Shown here: piece by piece, positions 38,352 through 42,100 of the stretch
Position numbering within the stretch: position 1 is the first letter of the stretch
How the letters are laid out: each line of letters opens with the position of its first letter
Translations under genes and position numbers: made by a program
From: Lachnospiraceae bacterium
GTDB lineage: Bacteria > Bacillota > Clostridia > Lachnospirales > Lachnospiraceae
Direction: 5' to 3'
Assembly: GCA_029007885.1 (NCBI GenBank)
Contig: JAQXIR010000119.1
Coordinates: 1-45,199, forward strand
DNA: 45,199 nt
Notes under the pieces: generated by a model
The model's input: the letters and a program-made list of their open reading frames with translations, nothing else
What the model was told of the DNA's origin: nothing
Databases searched by the model: none

Positions 38352-38582
38352 AAAAAAACCCGTCCTGAAAAGGACGGGTATATTCCCGGTAACCACCTTA
38401 ACATACTTCCATATGTCTCTCGCATAACGGTGAGATTCCGTTGGCGCCTACTTTCCTTCGGGCCAAGACTCAGAAGTGATTTTCCATTGTTTCCTACCGG
38501 TATCCGGTTCGCACCCTCCCGGACTCTCTGTAACGTTCAAAAACATGTACTGTCTTCGTCAAAGTCGTTATCTTTTATATCT
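38352..38582 (-). ncRNA. Isoleucine T-box riboswitch leader of ileS
   Basis: Read on the minus strand, the leader has a long stem I region, a specifier ATC (38478-38480) in the context AAAATCACTTCTGAG, and the T-box sequence AAGGTGGTTACCG (38387-38399). Its TGGT can pair with the ACCA end of tRNA-Ile. The leader ends in a terminator: ACCCGTCCT (38358-38366) and AGGACGGGT (38371-38379), then seven T residues. Uncharged tRNA-Ile is expected to stabilise the antiterminator and switch ileS on. Confidence 0.9.
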
Positions 38583-38639: not shown

Positions 38640-38999
38640 TTACTCGATGCTCTTCTTTGTCTTAATTGATGCAATAACTGCCAGAATTGCATTAATCAAG
38701 CACCACACTGACCATACAACTAGGTCGCTATAATTTCCATATCCGGCAAATCCGAGCAGTGCTGCAAGTCCAAATAAAATAATCAGCGCAATATTTCCGC
38801 CTTTTCCGGTGGATTTTCTGGAGGCAATAGAAACAATGCCACCCGCAAGCATAAGAATTGCAACAACAAAACCAAATGATCCGGATGAGCTACCATTCTC
38901 TTCCAAAGTATTAACGATTCCTGCTGCACAAGATTGGAATGTTACAACAGCAAACAGAATAATTGATAAAATACCTGATACAAGTTTCCATGTTTTCAT
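38640..38999 (-). CDS. Small four-helix membrane protein
   Basis: No function known to me. The 119 residues hold four likely membrane helices, at about 6-28, 41-61, 67-86 and 91-112, with a short Ser/Gly loop (ENGSSSGSFG) between the first two and a basic C-terminus (KTKKSIE). Similar short proteins are common in Lachnospiraceae beside secreted domain-repeat proteins, as I recall. It follows the two-repeat secreted protein by 24 bases and is likely last in that operon. Confidence 0.72.
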   Translation of the reverse strand: MKTWKLVSGILSIILFAVVTFQSCAAGIVNTLEENGSSSGSFGFVVAILMLAGGIVSIASRKSTGKGGNIALIILFGLAALLGFAGYGNYSDLVVWSVWCLINAILAVIASIKTKKSIE

Positions 39000-39023
39000 T
39001 TGAATTGTTCTCCCTGTTTATTT

Positions 39024-39953
39024 TTATTGAGCTGAGAAGGTAATGGCATCGGAATCGGTAATTGTACTATAGGAATCAGCATCGTAAATATGGAATTTCA
39101 GTTCTACTTCTTCAATTGCCGTTATTCCGTTTTCCTCTAAATCACTTGAAAAAATTGTAATGTCATCGATTGCTTTTTTACCGTCATAAACGGTTGTAGA
39201 GAATATCGGATTCATCATAAATCCGTTAATTGACATATCATCTACCGAGATACCCACATTTTTACCGGATGTATTTTCACAATAAAGAAGAATTGCTGTC
39301 CCCCAGAAACTGTTCTCATCTACTGCTTTGCCGACAATTCTGATACCACCCTCATTATAAAGCTCCGTTCCCGCGTCATTCGGAGTCGTATCCATATTGG
39401 CATACTCCGAGGTCTGAATTGTTACACAGTCTGAGTCAAAGATCTTATCCATAGAATCGGAATCATAAATATGAAAATAGATTTCAACCTGCCCAACTGT
39501 ATCGATTCCGGCTGCTTTCAGTCCGGAACTTGATAAGTAAATCGTATCGTTTGCTTTCTTACCGGCTGCAACTTCTGTTGCAAAAAGATCCGATATCATA
39601 TAATCATTTACAATCAATGCCGTGCATCCAATTGTAATATTTTGTGTTGAATTATTCACAACCAGTAGTTTTATCCCGTCTCCCCAAATGCTATCCGATA
39701 CATACTCTGTTGCGGTAATCACAATGTCATTCTGGTCAATCAGAATCTGTTCATCTATTGTGATATCTGTAGAACTTTTCGAATTTTCTGTTGTCTCCTG
39801 ACTTTCGCTGCTTTCTCCTGCCTGTGATTCGCTGTTATCTGTTGTGACAATTTCTTTTGTATCCTGAGAATTTGATGAACCGCTTCCAAGTGCCATCATT
39901 GCAAAAAGAGACAGACATAACACCACTGCTAACCATTTCAATTTTTCCCTCAT
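39024..39953 (-). CDS. Secreted protein with two tandem repeat domains
   Basis: Exported protein of unknown function. The 309 residues have a signal peptide ending ALGSGSS, where a serine stands at the place a lipobox cysteine would take. A Ser/Glu/Thr-rich linker follows (about 25-70). Two related domains come next, about 73-185 and 198-309. They align through SIWGDGIKLLVVNNST with SFWGTAILLYCENTSG, then through AAGKKANDTIYLSSSGLKAAGI with YDGKKAIDDITIFSSDLEENGI (shown here in fragments of each), and VEIYFHIYDSDS with VELKFHIYDADS. The start overlaps the stop of the VanZ-like gene (ATGA, 39950-39953), so translation is coupled. Confidence 0.78.
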   Translation of the reverse strand: MREKLKWLAVVLCLSLFAMMALGSGSSNSQDTKEIVTTDNSESQAGESSESQETTENSKSSTDITIDEQILIDQNDIVITATEYVSDSIWGDGIKLLVVNNSTQNITIGCTALIVNDYMISDLFATEVAAGKKANDTIYLSSSGLKAAGIDTVGQVEIYFHIYDSDSMDKIFDSDCVTIQTSEYANMDTTPNDAGTELYNEGGIRIVGKAVDENSFWGTAILLYCENTSGKNVGISVDDMSINGFMMNPIFSTTVYDGKKAIDDITIFSSDLEENGITAIEEVELKFHIYDADSYSTITDSDAITFSAQ

Positions 39954-40384
39954 TTCATTTTCCTCCTCAAAAGTAACTTTTTTATAATAAAAACAGCAAT
40001 TACCTCTGCCAAAAGTTCAACTATGATGTCATACCAGTCAAATGTTCCTTTAACAACAGGGGTAATCTGAAGAAATTCCATAACTGCTGAAAATAGAGAT
40101 GCTATCAGAAAAGTCTTCAATAAATATGCTGCATTATTATCTAAGAAATAATATAAAGTAAAAATAAGTGCGTATCCCCACAACATATCCGGCAGATAAT
40201 TTCTCATTATTCTAATTGCCGGATTGACTGCGGTAATATCTGAAATATGGATTCCTTTCCCAATTAGGAAATCCATTCTTTTGACAAATATGACTTCCGG
40301 TGATATCAGATAATAAATAATCGCTCCAAGAAAAATAGGAATTATGATATTCCACAAAATCACCTTTGTTTTCAGTTTTTCCAT
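39950..40384 (-). CDS. VanZ-like membrane protein
   Basis: A 144-residue polytopic protein with four likely helices. The pattern LPDMLWGYALIFTL, then MEFLQ, then GTFDWYDIIVELLAEVIAVF matches the VanZ family layout. VanZ of enterococci gives teicoplanin tolerance; most VanZ-like proteins have no proven role. The ATG at 40384 has only a weak ribosome site. A TGC-TACAAT extended -10 (minus strand, 40407-40415) may give it its own promoter, 70 bases after the HTH gene. It is translationally coupled to the downstream secreted protein. Confidence 0.75.
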   Translation of the reverse strand: MEKLKTKVILWNIIIPIFLGAIIYYLISPEVIFVKRMDFLIGKGIHISDITAVNPAIRIMRNYLPDMLWGYALIFTLYYFLDNNAAYLLKTFLIASLFSAVMEFLQITPVVKGTFDWYDIIVELLAEVIAVFIIKKLLLRRKMK

Positions 40385-40406
40385 GTTGTATGCCGTCTTT
40401 CACAAT

Positions 40407-40415
40407 ATTGTAGCA
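40407..40415 (-). promoter_or_regulatory. Candidate internal promoter for the VanZ-like operon
   Basis: TGC-TACAAT on the minus strand is an extended -10. No good -35 is present at the usual distance. Confidence 0.35.
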
Positions 40416-40454
40416 TATAAAATTACGCTCCGTTGCCCCTCCCAAGGTGGCAAT

Positions 40455-40916
40455 TTAATCCTGCCTTCCACTCGTCCTTAGAGGTTCCATTCCGTTTTCC
40501 TTCAACAGAGCATTTACATCAATGATACTTCCCGGGCGCTGATTAAATATAATCATGAGTAATGCATCTCTCGGTATCTTTACATATAACTGTGGCATTT
40601 CGTATTCTTTCAAAGCCTTCTGCGTTTCCTCCAAAGAAAAGTCTGCCGCATAACAGATTCTTAAAATTACATCTCTCTGCTTTGTCCTTTTTTCACCGGA
40701 AAGCAGTTTATAACCGTATCTTTCCGGAATATCCGCTTTTAAAAAAACGTTTTGCTGTGTAACTCCCTTTTGTCTGAACAGTTCTTTCACATACACTGAA
40801 AAAGAATCGATACTGGTTGTCATACTATCCTTATTTTCTTTATAAAATTTTGCAAACTCATTAACATGGGTGCTTCCCAGAACGTTCTCTAATTCTTTTG
40901 TATTTTTTTCGTTCAT
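40455..40916 (-). CDS. Helix-turn-helix protein paired with a divergent kinase
   Basis: Putative DNA-binding protein. The 153 residues have a central helix-turn-helix-like stretch (about 40-100: YVKELFRQKGVTQQNVFLKA, then YGYKLLSGEKRTKQRDVILR). A conserved-looking C-terminal part contains LYVKIPRDALLMIIF and NALLKENGMEPL. The pattern resembles HTH proteins that sit beside bacterial Ser/Thr kinases in Firmicutes, from my recollection. I start at the ATG at 40916, behind GGAGG; the longer frame to 40979 runs across the kinase start. It is divergent from the kinase with 54 bases between, and precedes the VanZ-like gene. Confidence 0.75.
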   Translation of the reverse strand: MNEKNTKELENVLGSTHVNEFAKFYKENKDSMTTSIDSFSVYVKELFRQKGVTQQNVFLKADIPERYGYKLLSGEKRTKQRDVILRICYAADFSLEETQKALKEYEMPQLYVKIPRDALLMIIFNQRPGSIIDVNALLKENGMEPLRTSGRQD

Positions 40917-40931
40917 TCTATGCCTCCAGTC

Positions 40932-40940
40932 TGATATAAT
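40932..40940 (+). promoter_or_regulatory. Kinase gene promoter, extended -10
   Basis: TGA-TATAAT is a strong extended -10. The -35 position falls on the start codon region of the divergent HTH gene, so HTH binding or transcription there could interfere with it. Confidence 0.55.
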
Positions 40941-40970
40941 ATGTCTAAATAGATTGAAAGGAATCGTAAT

Positions 40971-42038
40971 ATGGATCATTTAGACCGACCAGCTATTTCA
41001 AACTACAAAACCATAGCCGTCTTAAATGAAGCACATAAGGTATATCTTGTTCAACATCGGGAGTCCTGCCAAATTTATGTCGAGAAAGTACTTGATGTTT
41101 ATAACAGTCAGGTTTATCAGTACCTTTATGAAAATCATTTTAGCGGTATTCCCAAGATAGAAGAACTTTATGAAGATACTAATCAGCTTATTGTCGTCGA
41201 AGAGTATATCGCAGGACAGTCTTTGCAGGATATCATTGATCATTCTGTTCTGAATATTGAACTTATTTTTCACTATATGATAGAATTATGTAAAATTTTG
41301 GAACATACACATGCTGTCAATCCACCGATTATACATCGAGATATTAAGCCTTCCAATATTATTGTGACATCATTCAATAACGTCGTTCTGTTAGATTTTA
41401 ATGCTGCAAAATACTACTCTGATGGTAGTTCCTCTGATACGGTTTTACTAGGCACAAAAGGATATGCCGCGCCGGAACAGTATGGATTTGGTTCTTCTGC
41501 TCCCCAGACCGATATTTATGCCTTGGGAATTCTGTTAAAAGAAATGACCGCATCTCTTATTAATTCAACATCCATATTTGACCCTGTGATCGCAAAGTGT
41601 ACCCAGATGAATCCATCTGATCGATATTCTTCCATTGCAGAATTAAAAAGCGCCTTACAACAGCTAGCACATCCAACTGTTCAAGCGGTTGAAGAACCTT
41701 TTTCCTTAAAATCATTAATCTTTCCGGGCTATCGGACAAAGACCCCTTGGCATATGATTGTTGCAACTCCGATCTATGCCTTTATCTTTTGGTTATCCCT
41801 ATCCTTGGAAATAAAAGGTGCTTCCATTTCTAAGTTATGGTTGGAAAGGATTTGTTTCTTATTGATGATGCTATCCATTGTTTTCGGTTCCTTTAATTAT
41901 CTCGGAATGCAGAAATATTTTCCTCTTTGCATGTGTAAAAACCGAATTCTCCATTATCTTGGCATCATACTTCTGGATTTTTTATTAGTTATGGCTTTTA
42001 TGATGCTTTTGATTATTACTGAATCCCTACTTTGTTAG
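40971..42038 (+). CDS. Membrane-anchored Ser/Thr protein kinase
   Basis: Hanks-type kinase with an N-terminal cytoplasmic catalytic domain (about 10-235) and three C-terminal membrane helices (about 261-281, 296-316, 329-353). The catalytic loop is HRDIKPSN from residue 122. The metal motif is DFN (142-144) in place of DFG, and the activation end is GTKGYAAPEQ. The ATP lysine is likely in YVEKVLD. A clear glycine-rich loop is missing (AVLNEAHKVYLV). There are no PASTA repeats, so it is not the usual PrkC. The ATG follows AAAGGAA. It is divergent from the HTH gene and has two hairpins downstream. Confidence 0.88.
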   Translation: MDHLDRPAISNYKTIAVLNEAHKVYLVQHRESCQIYVEKVLDVYNSQVYQYLYENHFSGIPKIEELYEDTNQLIVVEEYIAGQSLQDIIDHSVLNIELIFHYMIELCKILEHTHAVNPPIIHRDIKPSNIIVTSFNNVVLLDFNAAKYYSDGSSSDTVLLGTKGYAAPEQYGFGSSAPQTDIYALGILLKEMTASLINSTSIFDPVIAKCTQMNPSDRYSSIAELKSALQQLAHPTVQAVEEPFSLKSLIFPGYRTKTPWHMIVATPIYAFIFWLSLSLEIKGASISKLWLERICFLLMMLSIVFGSFNYLGMQKYFPLCMCKNRILHYLGIILLDFLLVMAFMMLLIITESLLC

Positions 42039-42074
42039 CAATGACGTTATTATACCATTATTTCATGAGGATTG

Positions 42075-42100
42075 TTGCCACCACAAAGGTGGCAATTTTT
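42075..42100 (+). terminator. Kinase gene terminator
   Basis: TTGCCACC (42075-42082) and GGTGGCAA (42088-42095) with a 5-base loop, followed by five T residues. Confidence 0.75.

Follow-up and report, generated by a model that had tools for sequence, protein, structure and literature searches.

Can a bacterial Ser/Thr kinase be dedicated to a single transcription regulator? Genomes are described as encoding few such kinases, which act pleiotropically, whereas in two-component systems one kinase is wired to one regulator (PMC4601284). The question is raised by a locus in contig JAQXIR010000119.1 of a Lachnospiraceae bacterium (hereafter the window, 45,199 nucleotides [nt] in full), in which the gene of a 355-residue Hanks-type Ser/Thr kinase (positions 40,971 to 42,038, forward strand) is divergent from that of a 153-residue helix-turn-helix (HTH) protein (40,455 to 40,916, reverse strand). 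Three genes for membrane or secreted proteins, here called the cargo, follow the HTH gene. Rechecking the sequence found all five genes in place and the kinase and HTH genes separated by 54 bases, as the initial annotation had described. Here, we show that kinase and HTH protein have been conserved together as a unit, that envelope genes travel with them, and that one threonine of the HTH protein, Thr6, is invariant. We think it probable that the two constitute a dedicated kinase-regulator system, in which the kinase would phosphorylate Thr6 and thereby alter envelope gene expression.

The first line of evidence is adjacency. We searched 150 genomes of the same family with the HTH protein and fetched the surroundings of the 52 strong homologues found outside the window; 43 of them have a kinase of this class no more than 500 bp away. 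The relation is reciprocal, as 32 of the 38 kinases of the class in these genomes adjoin an HTH gene, the class being defined as the places that score above the genomes' other, larger kinases (E values of up to 1.3e-61). A phylum-wide sample yielded 17 strong HTH matches other than that of the window, spanning eight family groups and mostly in genomes outside the window's family, and the kinase is present at 15 of these. The pair is mostly divergent, but it also occurs as HTH then kinase (with several ATGA overlaps), as kinase then HTH, and, once, in convergent orientation. The tree of paired HTH proteins (59 sequences) implies at least nine changes of orientation with adjacency kept; adjacency was therefore maintained through rearrangement, and it persists down to about 25% identity. 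Distances among the HTH proteins correlate with those among the kinases (Mantel r of 0.69, the highest of 2,000 permutations reaching 0.21, with species ancestry not controlled for). The co-location is far beyond chance, and the kinase and the HTH protein are a conserved unit. The initial annotation had suggested comparing co-occurrence and gene order among genomes, and that comparison shows a pair conserved across the family and beyond it.

These observations bear on a simpler explanation, according to which the HTH protein is an ordinary, self-contained regulator, the kinase next to it is pleiotropic, the neighborhood reflects shared ancestry or promoters, and Thr6 is structural. Many related HTH proteins do function without kinases, and reviews call bacterial Ser/Thr kinases pleiotropic rather than exclusive (PMC4601284). 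However, an adjacency that is reciprocal, reaches other families, and survives both the reorientations and this degree of divergence makes such an explanation unlikely.

If the kinase serves its neighbor, what would it act on? The HTH protein of the window has no Pfam match over threshold (the best, HTH_26, scores 12.4 bits versus 22, with an E value of 0.19), although many of its relatives match HTH_3, HTH_26, or HTH_31. In its AlphaFold model, which has nine helices and a mean predicted local distance difference test (pLDDT) score of 90, Foldseek recognizes a Cro/CI HTH core (probability of 1.00; target-normalized template modeling scores of 0.7 to 0.8 to XRE proteins; E values above 0.001), and a profile search matches 3op9 (E value of 3e-4). 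The protein is thus predicted to adopt an XRE/Cro-CI-type fold, and its first description as an HTH protein holds on the strength of this core and of the Pfam matches of its relatives, despite the subthreshold score of the protein itself.

Within this protein, Thr6 (codon at 40,899 to 40,901, reverse strand) stands out as the candidate phosphoacceptor. It is kept in all 126 proteins of a nonredundant set (less than 90% identical; median pairwise identity of 29%), in which the only other invariant columns are Leu102 and Leu110. The second-best Ser/Thr column reaches 77%, and position 9, at +3 from Thr6, is Leu in 95% of the set. Leu or Val at +3 is also enriched around the PknA-dependent Thr sites of Mycobacterium tuberculosis, defined as sites lost upon PknA depletion (PMC7164672). 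In the AlphaFold model, Thr6 begins an N-terminal helix that is not part of the HTH core, and related XRE proteins without a kinase neighbor (macrodomain fusions and Listeria phage regulators among them) align only past this helix. We considered helix N-capping as the sole reason for the conservation and rejected it: position 5, which is T, S, N, P, or D across the family, is the natural cap, whereas Thr6 is already helical, so capping alone does not demand a Thr at position 6. As a separate observation, the XRE domain of the HTH family also forms the C terminus of proteins of about 350 residues with a macrodomain-like start (loci L106, L137, and L138); no kinase is nearby, and this apparent family is common in these genomes.

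The kinase itself matches Pfam Pkinase (90.6 bits) and carries the motifs HRDIKPSN, DFN instead of DFG, and APEQ. It has no extracellular domain and no PASTA match, which sets it apart from the PrkC type with its extracellular PASTA repeats, and it ends after three hydrophobic stretches, predicted again as membrane helices in relatives. This agrees with the proposal of a non-PASTA Ser/Thr kinase with three C-terminal membrane helices. In an alignment of the 59 kinases found beside an HTH gene, the Hanks-type residues are present: Lys39 is kept in 52 of 57, the HRD Asp124 and the DFG-position Asp142 in 59 of 59, and Asn129 and the PE of the APE motif in 58 of 59 each. Since the catalytic Lys, Asp, Asn, and Asp are nearly all kept, most of these kinases should be active. 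Their C-terminal halves are of three kinds, with two to three membrane helices, one helix and an extracellular part, or no helix, which fits exchangeable sensing parts. The source genome also encodes a separate kinase of 656 residues, its likely PASTA kinase.

How might expression of the two genes be coupled? The 54-bp divergent region (40,917 to 40,970) contains the kinase promoter and the ribosome-binding site of the HTH gene. The initial annotation had put the -35 position of the promoter on the HTH start; this is literally right, as TTCATT (40,912 to 40,917) overlies the start codon 17 nt before TATAAT (40,935 to 40,940), but the hexamer is a poor one, and the promoter is better described by a conserved extended -10 element, TGATATAAT (40,932 to 40,940, forward strand). 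Of 45 relatives, 36 have the pattern TGnTAnAAT here, in almost every case 13 to 16 nt from the HTH start, compared with about 1% of random 60-nt windows. Since the extended -10 element abuts the HTH ribosome-binding site, transcription of the kinase and HTH genes must overlap, and autoregulation is likely. The palindrome TTGCCACC-N5-GGTGGCAA was considered as an operator and dropped, being exact only at the intrinsic terminator of the kinase transcript (42,074 to 42,096, forward strand), whose perfect stem is found at no other place in the genome.

The genes behind the HTH gene are ordered as first described. A gene for a 144-residue VanZ-like membrane protein (39,950 to 40,384) follows after a gap of 70 bases and is joined by an ATGA overlap (39,950 to 39,953) to that of a secreted repeat protein (39,024 to 39,953); after 24 bases comes the last gene of the cluster, encoding a four-helix membrane protein of 119 residues (38,640 to 38,999), all on the reverse strand. 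Does this cargo belong to the pair? A whole-genome search with the repeat protein found 10 orthologues (E values below 1e-140, the next match being at 1e-44), all 10 beside a kinase-HTH pair. The most independent test of co-location was a scan of 84,980 species genomes with the repeat protein alone, a distant HTH profile being unusable in such a scan of genome contigs; because the repeat protein served as the query, the result is independent of the kinase and the HTH protein. Both partners are found at 63 of the 80 loci recovered, some of which are shared with the whole-genome search. Among the 44 loci with more than 5 kb on both sides, the HTH gene is present at 39, as is the kinase gene. The VanZ-like protein gave five strong matches and one truncated copy, all beside a pair. 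For the four-helix protein, 8 of 12 strong matches lie beside a pair and the other four do not, making it a looser companion. The initial annotation had grouped the VanZ-like and repeat genes with the pair while cautioning that the grouping might be local and fail beyond close relatives. The searches with these two proteins support the grouping and remove the caution, since cargo lies beside the pair in dozens of species.

The cargo follows the HTH gene in some genomes and the kinase gene in others (loci L087, L237, L267, and L272), and the repeat proteins remain 50 to 70% identical to that of the window while some of their partner HTH proteins drop to 22 to 37%. The same cargo has thus been joined to different pairs. 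More generally, genes downstream of either partner encode membrane or secreted proteins in 41 of 53 cases, versus 83 of 209 at other positions of these loci (odds ratio of 5, P value of 1e-6), an excess due in part to the cargo families themselves being counted.

What the cargo proteins do can be approached from their motifs and models. The VanZ-like protein scores below the Pfam cutoffs for VanZ (21.3 versus 30.1 bits) and DUF2809. Its residues D66, E103/Q106, and D116/D119 are invariant in our alignment, and this arrangement (an H2 Asp, ExxQ in H3, and an Asp at -3 from the H4 Asp) is that of the VanZ/Skillet lipocones as described in PMC12419801. The predicted targets of these lipocones are the lipid head groups in peptidoglycan or exopolysaccharide precursors (PMC12419801). 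The secreted repeat protein carries a signal sequence; its AlphaFold model and alignment show two immunoglobulin (Ig)-like beta-sandwich repeats, and some relatives have a lipobox Cys. Because Foldseek returned only generic beta-sandwich matches for it, we claim no function for this protein. The envelope output proposed in the initial annotation is supported by the VanZ/Skillet motifs, the secreted Ig-like protein, and the excess of membrane and secreted neighbors. At locus L063 (5,646 to 5,837, Anaerobium acetethylicum), the VanZ-like gene is broken by an internal stop between intact HTH and repeat protein genes and so is dispensable there. Among tractable, nonpathogenic Lachnospiraceae isolates, Butyrivibrio sp. 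INlla14 (L225) and A. acetethylicum GluBS11 (L240), the latter with its VanZ-like gene broken, have the locus. The four-helix protein is fused to an N-terminal zinc ribbon at L203 (6,187 to 6,720), and zinc-ribbon membrane proteins adjoin several kinase-HTH pairs. In two genomes, diverged repeat and four-helix proteins (L194, 8,197 to 9,495; L195, 8,854 to 10,152) lie by a ribosomal RNA methylase-like gene and a resolvase gene, in a stretch that also has relaxase- and primase-like genes; there, the cargo is on a mobile element.

This mobile copy of the cargo, together with the matches of the PADLOC models PD-T4-6 and MAD6 to the kinase domain, could suggest that the locus is, like PD-T4-6, an antiphage defense or abortive infection module with a Ser/Thr kinase at its core. 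We consider this very unlikely: the PADLOC match is confined to a domain common to all Hanks kinases, the cargo is directed to the envelope and includes neither effector nor nuclease, and a search of 72,556 plasmid and 50,697 phage records found no full-length HTH homologue, which counts against a role in defense. Membership in PD-T4-6 was rejected, as the best-matching stretches fall inside the shared kinase domain and the neighbors are housekeeping genes.

We infer four elements of the following scheme, namely the phosphorylation of Thr6 and its sign, the signal, and the regulon. Through its three membrane helices, the kinase would respond to an altered membrane or membrane partner (the four-helix or the VanZ-like protein being candidates) and would phosphorylate its cognate HTH protein at Thr6, in the N-terminal helix. 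The phosphorylated HTH protein would bind DNA differently, the simplest case being that repression is relieved. Expression of its own operon, encoding a putative VanZ/Skillet lipid head group enzyme, the secreted Ig-like protein, and the four-helix protein, would then change, as would that of the kinase via the shared promoter region. That the kinase controls the HTH protein had been proposed at the outset; adjacency in both directions, correlated divergence, and the invariant Thr argue for it indirectly.

Several observations weigh against this scheme. Nine HTH proteins without a kinase within 500 bp keep Thr6, six of them with no kinase anywhere in the fetched stretch; since Thr6 is kept there, it may have a different role, or a kinase may act in trans. 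No inverted-repeat operator was found in the divergent region of the 45 relatives, only the extended -10 element and the ribosome-binding site being kept. About one-fifth of the repeat protein loci have no pair, in some cases because of contig ends. Finally, no glycine-rich loop (GxGxxG) was found in the N-lobe of the 59 paired kinases, nor a consistent alpha-C Glu in the clade of the window's kinase, and the DFG Gly is replaced by Asn or Asp in 41 of the 59. Such a degenerate N-lobe could mean that the kinase is a weakly active or inactive scaffold, which binds the N-terminal helix of the HTH protein at the membrane and sequesters it, with Thr6 serving in docking or structure; conservation of the entire T-x-x-L-x-x-x-L helix, and not of the Thr alone, would fit as well. 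Yet a pseudokinase should lose some of the catalytic residues that these kinases nearly all retain, and the Leu would suffice for docking, without the Thr. We therefore view a scaffold as improbable and favor phosphorylation of Thr6.

Past the end of the four-helix gene, ileS is served by a consensus promoter of its own (38,618 to 38,589) and a T-box leader (38,367 to 38,571, reverse strand; Rfam T-box, 83.2 bits, E value of 1e-17), which the default search missed because its score lies just below the curated cutoff of 93. Given the kinase terminator and this separate promoter and leader, the two divergent gene groups together make up a self-contained locus.

Among cases studied by experiment, the nearest is that of the kinase PknL and the HTH protein Rv2175c of M. 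tuberculosis, whose genes are adjacent. There, the kinase phosphorylates Rv2175c on Thr9, in its N-terminal tail, and the T9D substitution abolishes DNA binding (PMC4601284). Both systems have one N-terminal Thr in a small HTH protein that only binds DNA, Thr6 being, like Thr9, in an N-terminal extension of the HTH, and PknL-Rv2175c is also thought to have an envelope role (PMC4601284). Rv2175c, however, is a winged HTH protein missing one helix, with a tail limited to M. tuberculosis, whereas the HTH here is of the XRE type and not winged, its Thr is invariant phylum-wide, the kinase has three helices, and there is cognate cargo. Because the folds differ, the present system would work like PknL-Rv2175c without being a member of that family.

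Other known systems are further removed. The PASTA kinases PrkC, StkP, and IreK of Firmicutes share the Hanks-type core, a membrane anchor, and a link to the envelope, but the present kinase has no PASTA repeats, an atypical N-lobe, and a one-to-one regulator pairing versus their pleiotropic targets. CD2148 of Clostridioides difficile resembles it by description, as a second, non-PASTA Hanks kinase with a C-terminal membrane segment, but was studied for cell separation, and no paired HTH is described in PMC8262956. VanZ/Skillet lipocone operons share the H2 Asp, ExxQ, and DxxD and also lie beside predicted transcription regulators; in the passages of PMC12419801 considered here, these partners are HAAS/PadR, zinc-ribbon, and winged HTH proteins, not a Ser/Thr kinase-XRE pair. 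With two-component systems, the pair shares a sensor kinase gene beside a regulator gene and paralogous pairs per genome, but the kinase chemistry is unrelated, there is no receiver domain, and the proposed acceptor is a Thr in an N-terminal helix.

We found no description of a kinase-XRE pair in open-licence papers, a coverage that makes its absence weak evidence; this widespread Lachnospiraceae gene pair beside envelope genes is apparently undescribed. We lean, with slightly less confidence than for the locus itself, toward the view that Clostridia have a large, so far undescribed class of systems that each pair one Ser/Thr kinase with one HTH regulator. These would work like two-component systems but rely on phosphorylation of the Thr in an N-terminal TxxL helix, with interchangeable sensors (three-helix membrane, single-helix with an extracellular domain, or soluble) and interchangeable envelope cargo. 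Such a family, with a regulator gene for nearly every kinase and an invariant candidate phosphosite, would be notable because these kinases are generally viewed as pleiotropic: if true, it would be a large-scale exception to that rule, among abundant gut bacteria whose characterized signaling systems are few. The invariant Thr6 offers a single-residue, directly testable prediction. The pairing would also connect a regulator with a VanZ/Skillet membrane protein that has lacked an explanation and give the HTH, repeat, and four-helix proteins, which have no database families, a working context.

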